Source: Eggerthellaceae bacterium (GTDB lineage Bacteria; Actinomycetota; Coriobacteriia; Coriobacteriales; Eggerthellaceae). Taken from it: 41,228 nucleotides of DNA. This document shows positions 914 through 27,530 of the stretch, piece by piece. A program made the position numbers and the translations under genes. The DNA is taken from assembly GCA_030524475.1 (NCBI GenBank), contig JAUNGO010000017.1, forward strand, positions 1-41,228, read 5' to 3'. The notes under the pieces are model-generated. The model did not search any database. It was not told the origin of the DNA and saw nothing but the letters and a program-made list of their open reading frames with translations. Position 1 is the stretch's first letter, and every line of letters begins with the position of its first letter.

Positions 914-2023
914 ATGGCCTCCCATACGGTAACGCTTATTCCCGGTGATGGAATTGGCTCGGAAACGTCGGCTGCGATGCAGCGCGTCGTGGCGGCAAGC
1001 GGCGTTGACATCACGTGGGAGGTGGCTCCGGCGGGCGCGGCGTGTTTGGAGGAATACGGCGCAGTGCTGCCCGACTCGACCGTCGAGGCGGTGCGGCGCA
1101 ACAAGGTGGCCATCAAAGGGCCCATCACCACGCCGGTAGGTACGGGCTTTCGCAGCGTGAACGTGGCGCTGCGCAAGGCGCTGGGCTTGTACGTGTGTCT
1201 GCGCCCCGTGTGGTCGATTCCGGGGGCGGGCGGGCGCTACGCTGACGTTGACCTAGTGATCGTGCGCGAAAACTCCGAGGATCTCTATGCGGGAATCGAG
1301 TTCGAGGAAGGCTCCGACGATACGCGCGAACTCATTGACTTCGTGGAGGCGCGCGGTGCCGGCTCCATTCGTCCCGACTCGGGCATTTCCATCAAGCCGA
1401 TCTCGGTGACGGCGACGCGCAACATCGTCGAGTACGCGTTCGAGTATGCGCTGGCGCACGGGCGCCGCAAGGTGACGGCGGTGCACAAGGCGAACATCAT
1501 GAAGCACTCCGACGGCCTGTTCCTGCGCGAGGCGCGCGAGGTGGCGAAACGCTACGAAGGGCGCGTGGCGTTCGACGACCGTATCGTCGACGCGTTCTGC
1601 ATGAACATGGTGATGGACCCCGCGCAGTTCGACGTGGTGGTGTTCCCGAACTTGTACGGCGACATCGCCAGCGACTTGGCGGCGGGCCTGGTGGGCGGTT
1701 TGGGAATCGCCCCCGGCGCGAACATCGGGCGCGACTACGCGGTGTTCGAGGCGGTGCACGGCTCGGCGCCCGACATCGCGGGGAAGAACCTGGCGAACCC
1801 CACGGCCGAGATCCTGTCGGCGGCGATGATGCTCGACCACCTGCGCGAGCGCGAGGCGGCGGCGCTGATTCGCCAGGCGGTTTCGGCCGTGTATGCGCAG
1901 GGGACGTGCCTGACGGGCGACATTCGCCGCGCGACGGGGTCGGACGTGCCGGCGGCCACGTGCACGGCGTTTACCGACGCACTGGTGGCGGAGTTGGAGC
2001 GCCTGCGCGCTGAAAGGGAGTAA
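914..2023 (+). CDS. icd: NAD-dependent isocitrate dehydrogenase
   Basis: Oxidatively decarboxylates isocitrate to 2-oxoglutarate in the cytoplasm. The 369-residue protein belongs to the isocitrate/isopropylmalate dehydrogenase family. Visible hallmarks: the N-terminal IPGDGIGSE, RENSEDLYAGIE at about 118-129, HKANIMKHSDGLF with the catalytic lysine, NLYGDIASDL with metal-binding aspartates, and HGSAPDIAGK. In that last motif Asp287-Ile288 occupy the positions that are Lys-Tyr in NADP-specific E. coli enzyme, which points to NAD. AAGGAG precedes the ATG by 7 bases. Only 3 bases separate its stop from acnA, so the two are surely co-transcribed. Homoisocitrate or 3-isopropylmalate dehydrogenase are alternatives, but the aconitase partner and RENSED motif favour isocitrate. 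Confidence 0.92.
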   Translation: MASHTVTLIPGDGIGSETSAAMQRVVAASGVDITWEVAPAGAACLEEYGAVLPDSTVEAVRRNKVAIKGPITTPVGTGFRSVNVALRKALGLYVCLRPVWSIPGAGGRYADVDLVIVRENSEDLYAGIEFEEGSDDTRELIDFVEARGAGSIRPDSGISIKPISVTATRNIVEYAFEYALAHGRRKVTAVHKANIMKHSDGLFLREAREVAKRYEGRVAFDDRIVDAFCMNMVMDPAQFDVVVFPNLYGDIASDLAAGLVGGLGIAPGANIGRDYAVFEAVHGSAPDIAGKNLANPTAEILSAAMMLDHLREREAAALIRQAVSAVYAQGTCLTGDIRRATGSDVPAATCTAFTDALVAELERLRAERE

Positions 2024-2026
2024 ACC

Positions 2027-4714
<2,688 letters not shown>

Positions 4715-4723
<9 letters not shown>

Positions 4724-4741
4724 CCCGCCAAGCAGCGGGCG
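4715..4741 (+). terminator. Weak hairpin after acnA
   Basis: GCCCGC/GCGGGC arms overlap the acnA stop codon region, but no T tract follows, so termination here is uncertain. Confidence 0.3.
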
Positions 4742-4831
4742 TCTAAACAACGGCATATTTCATTGCGCGTCGTTAACGGGTGAACACGCGAGCAGTCAAC
4801 GCGACAAACGCCCCGTCCCCCTTGCCGTCTT

Positions 4832-6485: not shown

Positions 6486-6588
6486 ATTTTGTGTTAGAGG
6501 GCTTCGCGCTGCAATTTGATTGCTTATGGTGGCGGGCGAAGTCGGTTTGTGCGCAAAGTATTTCATTCGAGGAAAGCAGAGGCTAGCG

Positions 6589-9500
6589 ATGCTGCGGAGT
6601 GAGAAAGCAGAAAAACGCATCGGGGGGGGGGTCACAAATAGCGCTCTGTATGTAGCGTTGGTGATCGCTTTGGCGCTTGTGCTGGGCTTGGGGATCGCGC
6701 CCACGGTTGCGCAGGCGGACACGCAGGATGATGCGGCGTCAGATACGGTTGTTGATGGCTCGAGTTTTAACAGCTACCTGGATTATCTGAAAGATGAGCA
6801 GGGCAATTACTCCACGGTGAATGTTGGTCGTATCTGGACTGACAAGTCGGTGTTCAATCAGGGCTTTTCGTTTACCCTTGGCGATCTTACAGATCAGAAG
6901 GTTGAGAAAGGCAACTCGGATTTCCTTGTGGCGCTTTCCGCCCTATCCTCCGCCTCGACTCCAAGCATGACCTACACCCAGCCCCTCGACATCGTGCTTG
7001 TGCTGGACGTGTCGGGTTCGATGAATGATCCGATTTCCTATACCAAGACATACAATGTCCCTAACTACAATGATGGCTCCACGTATTTCTGGGTTCAGGA
7101 CGATATTATGTCCAGATTGTACTGGAGAGACGATAGGAGCGGTTGGTGTTATTACGATTACGACGGCATAAAAAACTATGTGCGCGTGCAACCTAAGACC
7201 AGTGAGAGCGATAATAATTCCACGCATCATCAGTTTTACGTTGGAGATTCAGCATCGGGCTCTAAGATGGATGCCCTCAAGAGCGCAGTGAACTCGTTCA
7301 TTGGTTCAGTTGCAGAGCAGAATGAATCTATTCTCAACGCTGACCAGAGACATGAAATCTCAATCGTTAAATTTGCCAGCAACAGCTATGTCGATAGCGG
7401 CATGGACAGCGTTGGGAACGAAAAAGACGGCAGTACTAATTACTCACAAATCGTGAGCGACATGACTGATAATGTGGAATTTCTCGAGGAAAGCGTGGGT
7501 CAATTAACTGCTGGTGGTTATACGGCGGCGGATTATGGCTTGACGTTGGCAAATCGTGTGCTTGGCACCGATGAAAAATCCGGCGCGGATCACGGTGCGC
7601 GTGCGGATGCCCAAAAAATCGTGGTCTTCTTTACCGATGGTGAACCGAATCACGTCAGTGGCTTCGATTCTGATGTTGCAACAACAGCGATAGAGCAAGC
7701 GGGCTCGCTCAAGGATGCAGGCGCGCTTGTGTATTCCATCGCGGTGGTGGGGTCTGCTGACCCTTCAGCTGAAATCTCAAGCGCTACCGAGCGCAATATC
7801 AACGCCTATCTTCACGGTATTTCGAGCAATTATCCCAAAGCAGAGGGATGGAGCAACTCAGCTTGGAACCTTGGCGAGCGCGTTGAGGACTCAAATTACT
7901 ACGAAGCAGCTACGAACGCAGATGAGCTGAAAGGCATCTTCGATGAGATTTCACGTGAGGTTACGGCTGCAACGCGCATTCCTACATTGACTGAGGAGGG
8001 CAACTACAACCACAGCGGCTACATCACGATTACCGATCTGCTCGGCGACTATATGCAGGTGGATGGGTTCAAGGAAATCATCTATGGCGATGAGCGCTAT
8101 GCCTTTAAGGACTATGGATCGGTCGCAACAAAAGACGGAACCACCGTTGACACGTACACCTTTGAGAAAAAGGTGACGGGCAATACGGGAGGCTCGGCCA
8201 ACCTGCACAACATTCTTATCACGGTAACGCGGTCGGATGATCTCGCCACGGGCGACGTTGTTGAGGTGAAGATACCCGCCTCGCTCATTCCGCTGCGCCA
8301 CTTCTACGTGCATATTGATGGCGATACAAACGCAGCCACCATGACGGTGGACGAAAACTATCCTATCCGCCTGTTCTATGGTGTGAGCGTAAAAGACGGC
8401 GTCTTTACCGATGCGGTGGACGAGAACGGCGCTGTTACGCAGACGGCGCTTATCAAGCAGCCAGACGTGAAATTCAAGGAATACGCTGCACAACACCAGA
8501 CGGAGGACGGTTCGGGCGTGCTCTTTTACTCCAATGCCTGGGAGGCGGATTCCGACGGAAATCCAACAGAAAACGGCTGCACCACCTCTGTGTTTGAGCC
8601 GGCAGCGACCAATGGTTTCTACTATATCGGCACCGATAAGCCAGTGTATAAGGACGAAGGGTGCACGATTCAGGCAACGAAAGCAGATGTTGAAAACGCA
8701 CAATCCGGGACGATGTTTTACTACCAACGCCCGTACTACGTAACAACTGCACTTGAACCCTCTGATGGTGTGTTGCCGGCAAAGCAAGATACGGAAATTG
8801 TTGGGTTCCCGGCGTCGAATTTTGAAGTTGGCGGTGGCGAGGACAAGAGCTGGAAGGTTGTTGACAACAAAGTCTTCATTCTGTCGACAGCGCATCGTCT
8901 CTCGTCGATTAACGATTTGCACGCTACGAAAGACAATGCAAATGCAACCGGTACGGCGGAGAACATCATTAATCCCACGTGGAGCGAAGACTCCGACAAC
9001 GCGAACAACGTAGTGGTGTACTTGGGCAACAACGGTCGTTTGCAGGCAGAGCTTACCGGTTCGCTGGCGATTAGCAAAAGCGTGAACGCTGCCGAAGGCT
9101 TTACGGTGCCCGAGGATGGCGACTTTACGTTTACCGTTGCCCTAAAGGATGCAAGCGATAACGCGTTGTCCGGTAGCTACAACTATGCTGTCGTGGACAA
9201 AAACGGCAACCAGATCACAAACGGTCGGGGTGAGGGCATCGCCGGCGCCATTGAGAATGGAACCGGCAGCATCACGCTCAAGGCGGACCAGACGATTCTG
9301 ATATACGGCCTGCCAAATGGAGCAAAGTATACGGTTACAGAGGCGAAGGCCAATGGCTTTACCGCCTCCGCAACCGTGAACGGCGTCGCTGCTGAAGTGA
9401 CGAAGGATGCCAACGACAATGCCTCCGTGAGCGGGAGCATCGAGGCGGGTGTTGACTCGACGTTAGCAACAGGCGCCAAAATAACAACGGTCGCCTTCAC

Positions 9501-12500
9501 CAACACCTACAAACCCGACGAGGTGGTGCTGGGCAGCGGCACCGGTACCGCGCTCGCGGGGCAGAAGACTCTCGCGGGTCGTGCCTGGAAAGATGGCGAG
9601 ACGTTCAGCTTCACGCTGGAGCCGAAGGAGGAGACTAAGGCGCAGGGCGGCTACTCGTTCGGCACCGATGGGGACGGCAGCGCGAGAGCTTCGCTTGCCG
9701 CAACTGCGACGAAGCCGGAGAGCGGCGCCACCGCCCAGTTCGCCTTCGGCGACGTGGCGTTCTCCAAGCCGGGCGATTACACGTTCACCATCAAGGAGAA
9801 CGTGCCGGAAGAAACTAACAAAGCGGGCGGCATGACCTACGACGGGCACACTTGCACCGTGACGGTGAAAGTCAAGGACGACGATTCGGGCAAGCTCGTG
9901 CTCGACGGCGGTGTTACGTACAGCAATACTGATGCGCGAACCGATGCCGACCTTAATGCAACTGATAAGGCTGCGTTCACCAACACCTATAACGCCACGG
10001 TGTCCGAAAGCGAGACAGCCAAGACGAACGCGACGTTCTACAAGAAGCTCAGCGGTCGTAATTGGCTCGATTCCGACGAGTTCAGCTTTACGTTGGAGCC
10101 TGCTACCGAAGGTGCGCCCATGCCCACGGGCGCGGTGGACGGGAAAGTTACGGCAACGGTGAAGGGCTCGGAGGTAAGGAACGACGACGGGGCGATTCCG
10201 TTCAGCTTCGGTGAGATTCGGTTCACGCGCGAAAACCTGAAGAATGCGGACGACTCGTATGGTACGTCGCGGACATTCGAGTACCACGTGACGGAGAACG
10301 ATACGTCGATCCCGGGTGTGTACAAGGACGGACATACCGCCACGCTCAAAATCACGCTGACCGACAACGGTAACGGCACGTTGTCTGTTGCGACCACCGT
10401 TGTGGACGGCACGTTTACGAATACGTATTCTTCGAGCACGACGTATAACGCAAATGGCGTAGGTGGACTTAACCTTACTAAGACGCTGAACGGTCGAGAC
10501 ATGAAGTCGGGGCAGTTTGAATTCACCGTCACGGCGAAGGATGAGGCATCAGCTGCGAAGGCTGGGTTTGACGCCAGCAGCAAAACCAAGGTGGTAGCGG
10601 TTCCTTCTGATGCCCCCGATGGTCAAACGGTGACCATGCACCCGTTCTCGGGCATGATCTTCAACCAAGACGACAACGGTAAAACCTACGAGTACACCAT
10701 TGCGGAGAGCAAAGGCGGTGACACGTCTGCGGGTTATACCAACGATACCGCTGTGCACACGGTGAAGATTTCCGTTGCAGATGACGGTAGGGGTGCCATT
10801 TCCGTTACTACGACAGTCGATGGCGGCACGCCGGTTGTTTCTACGAAAGCTAACCCCCAGGTTGCAACGGTTTCGTTTACGAATAACTATGCTGCTACGG
10901 GCTCCCTTGACGGCAACGCTGCCGTGAAGATTGAGGCAACCAAGACGCTTGCCGGTCGCGCTATGACGGCTGGCGAGTTCTCGTTCAAGGTGGTGGACAA
11001 GAACAACACGGTGGTTGCGACGGGCTCCAATGCGGCGGCTGACGCGGGTGTGCCCGGAGTTGTAACGTTCGGTGCAATCAATTACAGCACCGAGAGCCTG
11101 AAACAGGCGGTTGCATCGGGGGCTGCAACCAAGGCGCAGAGCGGCGCCTATGTGTTCAAGTACCAGGTGTATGAAGTTTCCGATGCCGATACACTTCCTG
11201 CGGGCGTAACCCATAAGGAAGGCCGCTTTAGCATTACGGTGACGGTGACAGACAACGGTGACGGAACGCTGACCCCGAGCATCGCATATCCCGACGGCAT
11301 GACGTCGCTCTCGTTTGAGAACACCTACGATGCGGAGAGCGTGCAGGTTGGCTTGCGGGGCGCGAAGGTACTTTCCCTGGGTGACACCTCGCTCAGCACG
11401 ACGATTGCCGATGTTGCGAATAAGTTTACGTTTACGCTTGAGGGTGTTGATGGGGCGCCAACGCCCGAACCGTCGAAGGTGAGCAACGACGCCGCAGGCA
11501 ACGTCGATTTCGGAAACGTGACGTTTACGAAGACTATGCTTGAGAACGCAAGCGAGAAGACGTTTACCTACAAGGTTTCCGAGTCCGGTTCGGCTGATGG
11601 CGTTCAAAACGACACAGAGATAAAGACCTTCACGGTGACCGTGAAGGACAATGGGCAGGGAAAGCTCGTGGCGACTACGAGTCCCGCTTCCGGCGCTCTG
11701 TTTACCTTCGACAATACCTATAGCGTGGAGTCGACGTCTTCTTCGTTGACCGATAGCATTAAGGTGACTAAGACGCTCTCTGGTCGTACGCTGCACAAGG
11801 ATGACTTCACCTTCCAGCTCATTGAGGGCACGGGTGCTGATGCCAAGGTAGTTGCTACGGGTACTAACGATGCTGTTGGCATGGTGAGCATGGGTGCGGT
11901 GACGTTCGACAAGCCCGGTGTGCGGCAATTTACGCTTGTGGAAAAGAGCGCGACTGGTGATGGCGTGACGTACGATTCTGTCGTGTATGACGTGTTCGCT
12001 ACCGTTACCGACAGCCACGATGGCACGCTGAGCGTAGCATGGTCGCTAAGCAAGGACTCTCAAGATAGCGGCCAGACTGGCCTGACCTTCGCCAACACCT
12101 ACGACGCAGACCCGACTTCGGTGATGCTGGGAGCAGCTAAGACGCTCGCCGGCAAGGACGGCAGCGCGCTTGAGCTCGAGGACGGGCAATTCTCCTTCGA
12201 GCTGCGCGATGCTGGCGGCAAGGTTGTGGGGACGGCAACGAACGATGCCGATGGCCAGATTACGTTCCCTGCGCTGACGTTCGATAAAGTGGGCACGTAC
12301 ACCTACGAGATGTCCGAGGTTGCGGGCAACGTGAAGGGTATGACCTACGACGGTACCGTGTTCAAGGCGATCGTGACCGTGACCGACGACGGCAAAGGAC
12401 ACCTGAGCGCGTCGGTCGCCTACGACGGCGATGCGACGCCTGTGTTCGCCAACGTTTACAGTGCCGATGGCAACGGTGGTGGCGATCCGGACGATGGCGA

Positions 12501-12819
12501 CGACAACGACGGCGACGGCGGCGGTGACAGCGGCGACGATGGTGACGACGACGGTTACAACGACAACGACAACGACGGCGACGACGATGGCGGCGACGGC
12601 GACGACGACGGTAATGATGGTGCCAGCGGCAACAGTGACTCGGACAATGACGGCAGCGGCGGCGCGGATGATGGCGACAGGGGTGTCGGCGAGTCCGGTA
12701 AGGCTGCTTCACCCCAGACGGGTGACGCTATGACAGGGGTGCTCGCGGGAGCTTGCGTGCTCGTTGTCGCGGCTGTCGCCGTGTGCCTCGGAGCGGCGCG
12801 CAGGATGCGTCGGCAATAG
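6589..12819 (+). CDS. Giant cell-wall-anchored surface protein: VWA domain, eight pilin-like repeats, SPQTG sorting signal
   Basis: 2,076 residues. A positively charged start and hydrophobic core ending APTVAQA form a signal peptide (about 1-43). A von Willebrand A domain follows (about 134-430) with MIDAS residues Asp140, Ser142 and Ser144 in DVSGS and TDGEPNH near 350. From about residue 820 come eight domains of roughly 115-160 residues, most opening with KTL(A/S/N)GR and closing with FTNTY-like motifs. This pattern belongs to streptococcal-type pilin domains that form internal Lys-Asn isopeptide bonds. An acidic Asp/Gly/Asn spacer (about 1963-2035) leads to SPQTGD, a hydrophobic helix and ARRMRRQ. 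ATG 6589 is chosen over TTG 6520 because AGAGG lies 6 bases upstream and it yields a clean signal peptide. Likely an adhesin or pilus tip. No sortase gene is in the window. Base composition is more AT-rich than the neighbours. Confidence 0.88.
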   Translation: MLRSEKAEKRIGGGVTNSALYVALVIALALVLGLGIAPTVAQADTQDDAASDTVVDGSSFNSYLDYLKDEQGNYSTVNVGRIWTDKSVFNQGFSFTLGDLTDQKVEKGNSDFLVALSALSSASTPSMTYTQPLDIVLVLDVSGSMNDPISYTKTYNVPNYNDGSTYFWVQDDIMSRLYWRDDRSGWCYYDYDGIKNYVRVQPKTSESDNNSTHHQFYVGDSASGSKMDALKSAVNSFIGSVAEQNESILNADQRHEISIVKFASNSYVDSGMDSVGNEKDGSTNYSQIVSDMTDNVEFLEESVGQLTAGGYTAADYGLTLANRVLGTDEKSGADHGARADAQKIVVFFTDGEPNHVSGFDSDVATTAIEQAGSLKDAGALVYSIAVVGSADPSAEISSATERNINAYLHGISSNYPKAEGWSNSAWNLGERVEDSNYYEAATNADELKGIFDEISREVTAATRIPTLTEEGNYNHSGYITITDLLGDYMQVDGFKEIIYGDERYAFKDYGSVATKDGTTVDTYTFEKKVTGNTGGSANLHNILITVTRSDDLATGDVVEVKIPASLIPLRHFYVHIDGDTNAATMTVDENYPIRLFYGVSVKDGVFTDAVDENGAVTQTALIKQPDVKFKEYAAQHQTEDGSGVLFYSNAWEADSDGNPTENGCTTSVFEPAATNGFYYIGTDKPVYKDEGCTIQATKADVENAQSGTMFYYQRPYYVTTALEPSDGVLPAKQDTEIVGFPASNFEVGGGEDKSWKVVDNKVFILSTAHRLSSINDLHATKDNANATGTAENIINPTWSEDSDNANNVVVYLGNNGRLQAELTGSLAISKSVNAAEGFTVPEDGDFTFTVALKDASDNALSGSYNYAVVDKNGNQITNGRGEGIAGAIENGTGSITLKADQTILIYGLPNGAKYTVTEAKANGFTASATVNGVAAEVTKDANDNASVSGSIEAGVDSTLATGAKITTVAFTNTYKPDEVVLGSGTGTALAGQKTLAGRAWKDGETFSFTLEPKEETKAQGGYSFGTDGDGSARASLAATATKPESGATAQFAFGDVAFSKPGDYTFTIKENVPEETNKAGGMTYDGHTCTVTVKVKDDDSGKLVLDGGVTYSNTDARTDADLNATDKAAFTNTYNATVSESETAKTNATFYKKLSGRNWLDSDEFSFTLEPATEGAPMPTGAVDGKVTATVKGSEVRNDDGAIPFSFGEIRFTRENLKNADDSYGTSRTFEYHVTENDTSIPGVYKDGHTATLKITLTDNGNGTLSVATTVVDGTFTNTYSSSTTYNANGVGGLNLTKTLNGRDMKSGQFEFTVTAKDEASAAKAGFDASSKTKVVAVPSDAPDGQTVTMHPFSGMIFNQDDNGKTYEYTIAESKGGDTSAGYTNDTAVHTVKISVADDGRGAISVTTTVDGGTPVVSTKANPQVATVSFTNNYAATGSLDGNAAVKIEATKTLAGRAMTAGEFSFKVVDKNNTVVATGSNAAADAGVPGVVTFGAINYSTESLKQAVASGAATKAQSGAYVFKYQVYEVSDADTLPAGVTHKEGRFSITVTVTDNGDGTLTPSIAYPDGMTSLSFENTYDAESVQVGLRGAKVLSLGDTSLSTTIADVANKFTFTLEGVDGAPTPEPSKVSNDAAGNVDFGNVTFTKTMLENASEKTFTYKVSESGSADGVQNDTEIKTFTVTVKDNGQGKLVATTSPASGALFTFDNTYSVESTSSSLTDSIKVTKTLSGRTLHKDDFTFQLIEGTGADAKVVATGTNDAVGMVSMGAVTFDKPGVRQFTLVEKSATGDGVTYDSVVYDVFATVTDSHDGTLSVAWSLSKDSQDSGQTGLTFANTYDADPTSVMLGAAKTLAGKDGSALELEDGQFSFELRDAGGKVVGTATNDADGQITFPALTFDKVGTYTYEMSEVAGNVKGMTYDGTVFKAIVTVTDDGKGHLSASVAYDGDATPVFANVYSADGNGGGDPDDGDDNDGDGGGDSGDDGDDDGYNDNDNDGDDDGGDGDDDGNDGASGNSDSDNDGSGGADDGDRGVGESGKAASPQTGDAMTGVLAGACVLVVAAVAVCLGAARRMRRQ
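6622..6631 (+). repeat. Run of ten G inside the signal-peptide coding region
   Basis: Ten consecutive G encode the Gly-Gly-Gly at residues 12-14 of the surface protein. A gain or loss of one base would shift the frame before the signal peptide is complete. Confidence 0.9.
12476..12695 (+). repeat. Low-complexity GAC/GGC tract coding the acidic wall spacer
   Basis: Repeated GAC, GGC, GAT and AAC codons give an Asp/Gly/Asn-rich segment directly before the sorting signal. The codon repetition makes it prone to length change between strains. Confidence 0.8.
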
Positions 12820-12882: not shown

Positions 12883-12987
12883 GTATATTCCTTACAGTTG
12901 CGTAAAGCTGTATGCCCCTTTCGCGGGGAACGGGACTTGTTGCCTTATACTGGCGGGTAATCGTTTTTCAATAGGAAGGGGATGCCT

Positions 12988-14931
12988 GTGGGACAGACAT
13001 CTGGTTTAGACGCGTTGCTTGAGGCTTTGAAACAATCGGGCGTGAACACCGGCAACATCGGCGGCTCGGGCGGCGCACGGGGCACAGGCGCAAGCGGCTC
13101 CGACGACGCGGGATCGACGGGCGCGGGCGACGGCGGCTCTTCGACAGGCGGTGGTCGCCGCGGCGGGCACGGCGGCAACGGGGGCGGCCCCACGTTCAGC
13201 TTCGACACGTCGTTCATGGACAACATCAAGAAGCCGCAGAGCAAAGGCGGCATGATCGCGCTTGTCGTGGTGGCAATCGTCGTGCTGGCGGCGCTGTACT
13301 GGTGGTTCCACCCGCCGATCAGCATCCACTCGGTCGACCTGTGGCTGTTCGTGGCCATCTTTATTCTGCTGCCCATCTTCTTGTTCTTCACGAACAAGTC
13401 GCGCACGTACAAGGCGGGCAGCACCAAGGTGGCGAAAGACGCCGGCAAAGCCAAAACGTTCAAGGCGCTGGCTGCCGTGCCGGTGGTGGTGGCGCTTGTG
13501 GGCGTGCTCGGCGGCGTGCTGTCGCTGTCGATCATTCCCGGCAACGCCGAGAAGTACGCCAGCGTGCTGAAAACCGACACGCTCGACTTCGCCACCGACA
13601 TCCACGAGGTGAACTACTCCGAGATTCCCGTGATCGACCGCGACTCGGCCATTTTGCTGGGCAACCGCGAGATGGGCTCGATTCCCGACTACGTGAGCCA
13701 GTTCGAGGTGTCCACGCTGTACAGCCAGATCAACTACCAGGGCGAGCCGGTGCGCGTGAGCCCGCTGGGGTACGCCGACCTGTTCAAGTGGTTCACCAAC
13801 CGCGAGGCGGGCATCCCCGCATACGCGCTGGTGAACATGACCACGCAGGACGCCGAGATCGTGCGTCTGGGCGACAGCCCCATCCACTACTCGCAGTCTG
13901 AGCCGCTCGTGCGCAACATCGACCGCCACGTGCAGCTGAGTTATCCCTTCTATATGTTTGACGAGAAGTCGTTTGAGATCGACGAGGACGGCCATCCGTG
14001 GTGGATCTGCCCCGTGAAGGAGTTCACGATTGGGCTGTTCGGCGGCACGACCATCAGCCGCGTGGTGATGGTCGACGCCACCACGGGCGAGTGTCAGGAC
14101 CTGGCGGTTGAGGACGTGCCCGAGTGGGTCGACCGCGTGTACCCCGCCGAGCTGCTCATTCAACAGTACAACTGGTACGGCACCTACCTCAACGGCTGGC
14201 TCAACTCGTTCCTCGGCCAGGAGGGCGTGGTGAAAACGACGCCCGGCACCGACGGCGCGCTGGGCTACAACTACATCGCCAAGGACGACGACGTGTGGGT
14301 GTACACGGGCGTGACCTCGGCCACCGCCGACAACTCGATCATCGGGTTCGTGATGGTGAACCAGCGCACGCAGGAGTCGCACTTCTACAGCGTGTCGGGC
14401 GCCACCGAGGAATCGGCGATGGAGTCGGCCGAGGGCCAGGTGCAGAACCTGCGCTACACGGCCACCTTCCCCATTTTGATCAACGTGGCGGACCAGCCGA
14501 CGTATTTCATGGCGCTCAAAGACGGCGCGGGGCTGGTGAAGAAGTTTGCGATGGTGGACATCCAGCGCTACCAGAACGTGGCGGTGGGCGACACCGTGGC
14601 CGACACGCAGAAGACCTACGAGGCGCTGCTGGCCACGAACGGCGTGAACGCGAGCGACGGGACGACGCTGACCGACGTGCTAACGGCAAGCGGCACCATT
14701 CGCTCGATGGCGCAGGCGGTGATCGAGAGCAACTCGCACTTCTACGTGACGCTTGAGGGCGACTCCGCCATTTATGACTTCGCGCTGCCGAGCTTGCTCG
14801 ACATCGTGAGCTACCGCGTGGGCGACGCGATAACGTTCACCTACCTGGAAGGCGACAGCACGAACGTGGCGTACGAAATTGTGTCGGGCGAGGGTAATGC
14901 GCCCTTGACGGAGAACGCCGAGGCGGTATAA
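12988..14931 (+). CDS. Uncharacterised membrane-anchored protein with large C-terminal domain
   Basis: About 647 residues. A Gly/Ser-rich region (about 20-70) precedes three hydrophobic segments: MIALVVVAIVVLAALYWW (about 90-110), LWLFVAIFILLPIFLFF (about 114-132) and one near 155-180. A long soluble region of about 460 residues follows, presumably extracellular, with the phrases RVVMVDATTGECQDL and GFVMVNQRTQESHFYSVSGA that recall PepSY-like repeats. I do not recognise the family. An ATG lies at 12982, but AGGAAGGGG abuts it; GTG 12988 has proper spacing and is preferred. The last codons contain the rplJ promoter. It is a single gene on the same strand as the surface protein; no functional link is shown. 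Confidence 0.8.
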   Translation: MGQTSGLDALLEALKQSGVNTGNIGGSGGARGTGASGSDDAGSTGAGDGGSSTGGGRRGGHGGNGGGPTFSFDTSFMDNIKKPQSKGGMIALVVVAIVVLAALYWWFHPPISIHSVDLWLFVAIFILLPIFLFFTNKSRTYKAGSTKVAKDAGKAKTFKALAAVPVVVALVGVLGGVLSLSIIPGNAEKYASVLKTDTLDFATDIHEVNYSEIPVIDRDSAILLGNREMGSIPDYVSQFEVSTLYSQINYQGEPVRVSPLGYADLFKWFTNREAGIPAYALVNMTTQDAEIVRLGDSPIHYSQSEPLVRNIDRHVQLSYPFYMFDEKSFEIDEDGHPWWICPVKEFTIGLFGGTTISRVVMVDATTGECQDLAVEDVPEWVDRVYPAELLIQQYNWYGTYLNGWLNSFLGQEGVVKTTPGTDGALGYNYIAKDDDVWVYTGVTSATADNSIIGFVMVNQRTQESHFYSVSGATEESAMESAEGQVQNLRYTATFPILINVADQPTYFMALKDGAGLVKKFAMVDIQRYQNVAVGDTVADTQKTYEALLATNGVNASDGTTLTDVLTASGTIRSMAQAVIESNSHFYVTLEGDSAIYDFALPSLLDIVSYRVGDAITFTYLEGDSTNVAYEIVSGEGNAPLTENAEAV

Positions 14932-27421: not shown

Positions 27422-27530
27422 GACGGGCGGGGGTGACCACGGGGTGAACACGGGGTGAGCAGGGCTGCGCTCTGGTGTTCGCCTGCGTCCCGTGTTCACC
27501 CCCCCCCAGCCCCCGTGTTCGCCCGCGCTT
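27422..27530. repeat. REP-like inverted repeat between convergent genes
   Basis: Perfect 14-base arms GGGGTGAACACGGG (27441-27454) and CCCGTGTTCACCCC (27489-27502), with outer copies of GTGTTCGCC and nine C in a row. It may also end transcription from both sides. Confidence 0.75.

Follow-up and report, generated by a model that had tools for sequence, protein, structure and literature searches.

In Bifidobacterium breve UCC2003, replication slippage at G tracts switches the sortase-dependent pili of bbr_0113 and bbr_1889 (PMC9187656). The reference genome carries both pilus genes in the off state, each with one G too many, and slippage between G10 and G11 was measured by deep sequencing, with shifts in the mouse gut (PMC9187656). 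The bbr_1889b gene codes for 2,674 aa, and the upstream ORF of bbr_0113 is only 24 nt long (PMC9187656). Phase-variable surface genes with poly-G or poly-C runs are also known in Neisseria, Campylobacter and Helicobacter (PMC5953494, PMC8355987, PMC2823697). For Eggerthella lenta, a preprint describes capsule switching by large inversions and mentions slippage merely as a general alternative (PMC13174815). The literature searched, which included few subscription papers, held no report of slippage for Eggerthellaceae, Coriobacteriia, Collinsella or Gordonibacter.

We describe here a G10 tract within a stretch of 41,228 nucleotides (the window; contig C80) from an Eggerthellaceae bacterium, whose fragmented assembly comprises 2.32 Mb in 97 contigs and is 85% complete. 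As in B. breve, the organism belongs to the Actinomycetota, the setting is the gut, and the tract is located near the 5' end of a gene for a large secreted protein with a cell-wall anchor of LPXTG type, identified by eye (PMC9187656). In contrast to B. breve, where the switched gene comes first in a pilus operon that includes a sortase, no dedicated sortase and no further pilins were detected downstream: neither the next gene (12982-14931) nor the other neighbours scanned, which make up part of the window ORFs, gave a Pfam match to a sortase or pilin. The bacterium also belongs to another class, Coriobacteriia, the window allele is on, and the switch is predicted from sequence. The switch proposed here is therefore not new in kind, because that of B. 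breve works alike; the class and the missing sortase operon are what differ. The genes of Neisseria, Campylobacter and Helicobacter share with this locus a homopolymer within the coding region, frame-based on/off control and a surface product, but those organisms are Gram-negative and the gene families are others, whereas here sortase substrates of a GC-rich Gram-positive bacterium carry the run before the signal core. The capsule of E. lenta, a member of the same family, is likewise subject to reversible surface variation, there by recombination and here, as we propose, by slippage (PMC13174815). A preliminary description of this DNA took the mechanism to be undescribed in the group, which holds for the class in the literature searched and not for the phylum, given B. 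breve (PMC9187656). The poly-G switch is proven in Bifidobacterium and appears to be undescribed in Coriobacteriia.

Anatomy of the G10 tract

The gene is located on the forward strand at 6589-12819. Its ATG (6589-6591) is preceded at a distance of 6 nt by a Shine-Dalgarno-like AGAGG (6578-6582, forward strand) and opens a frame of 2,076 aa with the stop codon at 12817-12819. The encoded N-terminus, MLRSEKAEKRIGGGVTNSALYVALVIALALVLGLGIAPTVAQA, consists of a charged n-region, GGG encoded by the tract, a hydrophobic core and a cleavage site. The ten G occupy 6622-6631 in frame within the n-region, filling codons 12-14 and extending one base into codon 15, rather than covering codons 11-15 as first described. 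The core LYVALVIALALVLGLGIA (6646-6699) reaches a hydropathy of 3.2 over 13 residues, and cleavage is expected after VAQA. A putative sortase-type cell-wall anchor, recognised by eye, is encoded at 12709-12816, with SPQTGD, a membrane span and an RRMRRQ tail. Pfam detected FctA in eight stretches (E 3e-134), VWA_2 (2e-7) and DUF7601 (4e-22), the FctA repeats being of the Spy0128-like isopeptide type. With a VWA domain, Spy0128-like repeats and the putative anchor, the predicted product fits a giant VWA/FctA surface protein.

A slip-prone mononucleotide run (about eight or more G) thus lies inside a coding region, as in contingency genes, and a change by one G in either direction abolishes the product. 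With 11 G the shifted frame runs into TAG at 6639-6641, and with 9 G into TAG at 6653-6655 (both on the forward strand), so that translation ends within 22 codons in either case; the G10 allele of the window is in frame, i.e., on. The placement of the tract upstream of the signal core of a 2,076-residue surface protein and the early stop after a one-G change, both claimed in the preliminary description, were borne out by the ORF, Pfam and hydropathy analyses and by these stop codons. That description had also named a start codon downstream of the tract as an objection; in this case the tract would be an untranslated leader. Another giant gene of the same genome (L063, on contig C94) does have a possible start with a Shine-Dalgarno sequence after a long C run. 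In the window, however, no usable start was detected downstream of G10, since all in-frame TTG and GTG codons are located inside the hydrophobic core and lack a Shine-Dalgarno sequence, and the charges of the n-region would disappear. A late start is scarcely credible.

Tract position and phase in homologues

Homologues were collected by protein similarity alone, never by the tract, with one genome per species. Among the 31 order-level homologues with a readable N-terminus, the window gene included, 14 carry G9 to G12 between the start codon and the signal core. Such a tract is expected at about 0.0009 per 100-nt interval, a null from which any p-value is only indicative because the homologues share ancestry. 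Among the 14 genes, the order is represented by three families (f1, f4 and f10), and for most of them the identity to the query is 42-50%. The gene is absent from the same-genus genomes G001 and G002; a contig search for further homologues gave only L066, without a tract, and a scan of viral contigs for the window site found nothing.

The phase was read from the best ATG bearing a Shine-Dalgarno sequence. Four of the 14 genes are in phase: the window gene (G10), L195 (G9), L283 (G10) and L285 (G9). The other ten are out of phase, nine with one G too many, namely L193 (G9), L194 (G12), L196 (G11), L198 (G10), L286 (G10), L290 (G10), L293 (G11), L294 (G9) and L295 (G10), and one, L197 (G10), with one too few. 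L294 has an additional in-frame ATG 19 nt upstream of the tract, which lacks a Shine-Dalgarno sequence. The off-phase genes would give peptides of 15-24 aa, and their reading frames are otherwise intact, remaining open over roughly 2,400-4,800 codons (about 1,900-4,800 across the 14 genes), as the off genes of B. breve do beyond the tract (PMC9187656). A second giant gene adjoining L197 (in L106; 1,719-codon frame, G9) is also out of frame, and in L298 the frame is broken at a G8 just downstream of the signal peptide. The counting of G in relatives, proposed in the preliminary description, thus gave, between species, G9 to G12 at the same spot and both phases. As a side observation, the frame of L063 (contig C94 of the same genome), which has 4,595 codons and is homologous to the window protein, has a C11 close to its start (L063:813-823); this run falls either in the leader or in the part that codes for the N-terminus.

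Homopolymers are error-prone in sequencing, and some genomes of the set contain obvious poly-G artefacts at contig ends; the off states might accordingly reflect errors of assembly or base counting. Against this, they occur across many independent genomes of varied contiguity, the frame being broken at the tract, and in several homologues TCTAGG or TCTAAG comes after the tract and gives a stop in a shifted frame. Miscounted bases would also leave the recurrent position of the tract unexplained. Sequencing error as the source of the off states is very improbable.

The off-phase genes L193 and L194, orthologues of two species (91% identical, 9% of residues differing), could be compared directly. 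Their dN/dS is 0.24 over 1,166 codons with zero gaps, so that purifying selection is evidently still acting on them. Such a value is unlike that of a permanently silent gene and fits a gene regularly turned back on. Open and conserved off frames together with a recurrent tract are characteristic of reversible slipped-strand phase variation.

The excess of alleles with one G too many (9/10, two-sided p 0.02) is shared by both B. breve loci, which have the same offset (PMC9187656). This bias possibly reflects a ratchet, with the switch being lost as tracts shrink, or a degree of re-framing at the RNA level. In a rival reading built on the latter, RNA polymerase slippage or ribosomal frameshifting would restore the frame, genes of off length would still yield some protein, and the tract would set a low level of product with no heritable switch. 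A re-framing device would need the offset to be constant, and one G too many is the offset of nine of the ten off-phase homologues and of B. breve (PMC9187656). However, the four in-frame homologues need no such device, one homologue has the opposite offset, the usual -1 ribosomal slippage repairs a missing base rather than an extra one, and the effect in B. breve is at the DNA level (PMC9187656). We regard re-framing in place of switching as improbable, though it could act in addition to DNA slippage.

Genome-wide excess of long G runs

Statistics for the source genome were obtained from pattern counts and from 453 kb of sequence stretches. For the window gene alone the tract is only mildly unusual, because 1% of synonymous-codon shuffles have at least nine consecutive G somewhere in the gene. 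For the genome, in contrast, 23 G/C runs of at least ten were counted and about 0.07 were expected when the geometric decay seen from length five to length six is extrapolated, an excess of about 350-fold; runs of exactly seven number 29. No comparable excess was observed for A/T runs in the 453 kb, where A runs end at nine and T runs at eight. Chance is excluded genome-wide as the source of the long G/C runs.

These data bear on the view that GC-rich codon use produced the tract as a side effect, with no switching role. GGG accounts for 24 of the 219 glycine codons of the window gene, and the shuffles do reach nine G now and then, as given above; but 14 of the 31 homologues share the position of the tract, mostly out of frame, and codon use of the translated frame cannot explain such recurrence. 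The excess of G runs far above the decay, with none for A/T, also speaks against codon use, which we consider highly improbable.

Long G/C runs are present in many genomes of the family. Some counts are raised by poly-G artefacts at contig ends, and clusters next to N gaps or at the ends of contigs, as in L041, L049 and several relatives, were excluded as likely artefacts; single-contig genomes have long runs as well (45 in G005, 50 in G093 and 34 in G103). G runs of the source genome that are exactly nine long were not scored as switches, since they belong in part to an intergenic repeat of the type GTGAAC...GGG, a poly-G source in its own right, of which several copies were seen (window 27499-27507, L040, L045, L052, L061 and L064).

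Tracts at signal peptides and in other genes

The tract-before-signal-core design was also found in unrelated secreted or membrane proteins of other genomes. In the complete genome G005, the related genes L100 and L101 start with MLRTMTKSLRGGGALILAAVLALSLIP and MLKTMTKSLRGGGALILAAVLALSLIP and contain G10; the N-terminus of L079 is MATSSSTFIRAEKHDGGGASLSAFAATLVVLAA; and in L185, from another family, the tract precedes a pilin-like core. Isolated tracts are located between start and signal core in 8 of 138 cases; for short G runs the figure is 32 of 5,749 (p 3e-6). After removal of the window and the tracts fetched by homology, the count is 4/134 against the same 32/5,749 (p 0.009), indicating that placement at signal peptides is enriched, yet the exception. 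The idea that poly-G runs as a whole are tied to signal peptides was considered and rejected, the proportions being 1/47 in G093 and 1/33 in G103. Since only one of the 47 isolated G093 tracts precedes a signal core, most poly-G runs of the family must have another role or none.

Several tracts were observed at other genes. A G11 (L058:134-144, contig C76 of the source genome) and a G10 (L078, contig C28 of G002) precede response-regulator genes that are orthologous between two species of the genus, the DNA being about 74% identical; switching of a regulator is possible. A G9 (L048:6163-6171, contig C40 of the source genome) and a G10 (L077, contig C11 of G001) occupy the same place next to DNA of 80% identity, at the 3' end of an apparent conserved histidine-kinase frame on the opposite strand, and could switch a kinase-like C-terminus. 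An in-frame G10 in L073 (G005:C1:66406) is located in the part coding for the N-terminus of a frame which, by eye, resembles DltA, the D-alanine ligase of teichoic acid; this tract could switch cell-wall charge. Another G10 (L042:7569-7578, contig C11 of the source genome) lies in the ribosome-binding region of a LysR-like regulator, flanked directly by ATG-A on one side and by the likely GTG start on the other.

Promoter-like G tracts in the same genome

Outside the window, seven G10 or G11 tracts of the source genome are located within promoter-like sequences on the minus strand, six on contig C70 (L054: 3315, 8074 and 14750; L055: 2085, 6802 and 10950) and the seventh on contig C92 (L062: 9213). 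At each site, nine bases separate a TTGAAA or TTGCCA from the G10 or G11, and TATCAT, TATTCT or TATCTT follows the tract, giving a spacer of 19 or 20 between the -35-like and -10-like hexamers, the usual promoter spacer being 17. Such matches were found at 7 of the 33 tracts of this genome, against 0.3 expected. The sites lie 70 to 145 bases upstream of the start codons of secreted surface proteins, and the six downstream proteins with a readable C-terminus all have the anchor ALAKTGD. The exact element was in no other genome among the 60 searched; similar promoters were detected at L181, L166 and L258. Homopolymers in promoter spacers serve as switches in porA and opc of Neisseria, and the seven sites share with them the position of the G10 or G11 between -35-like and -10-like hexamers, while concerning another gene family and predicted promoters. 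Judged by this layout, they are likely to form an array of transcriptional phase switches, and they support the same phase-switch reading of the window tract. DNA inversion near the C70 promoters was also considered as the switch and rejected, the inverted repeats found being ordinary hairpins or paralogue matches, none of which brackets the promoters consistently.

Proposed mechanism and significance

From the anatomy of the tract, the frame logic, the genome-wide excess, the recurrence in homologues and the selection on off genes, we conclude with a probability of roughly 0.9 that the window G10 is a contingency switch, by which slipped-strand mispairing would determine whether the protein is made. 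DNA polymerase would slip on the G run during replication and gain or lose one G, each change of length shifting the frame: the 2,076-residue cell-wall-anchored protein would be produced at G10, and a peptide of fewer than 23 residues at G9 or G11. A population would then contain cells of both kinds, with and without the protein, among which selection in the gut would choose. Slippage in this organism, its rate and the variation within a population are what we infer from these features; the protein is presumably an adhesin under selection by host or phage. More broadly, we lean towards the view that the order has a large, so far undescribed poly-G phasome acting at two levels per genome, one of frame switches upstream of the signal peptides of giant VWA/FctA proteins and one of switches in the promoter spacers of arrayed paralogues with sortase anchors, which together would allow combinatorial shuffling of the surface.

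Eggerthellaceae and what are probably Collinsella-type relatives in the set are common in the gut and have effects on drugs and diet; the surface variation known so far in E. lenta is by DNA inversions. If the present reading is true, slippage on giant adhesins and in promoter arrays would explain differences in surface and phage sensitivity within a strain. The G counts at the sites given here can be read from existing deep metagenomes. Colonisation studies that rely on single reference genomes, in which mostly off alleles are represented, may overlook these proteins.
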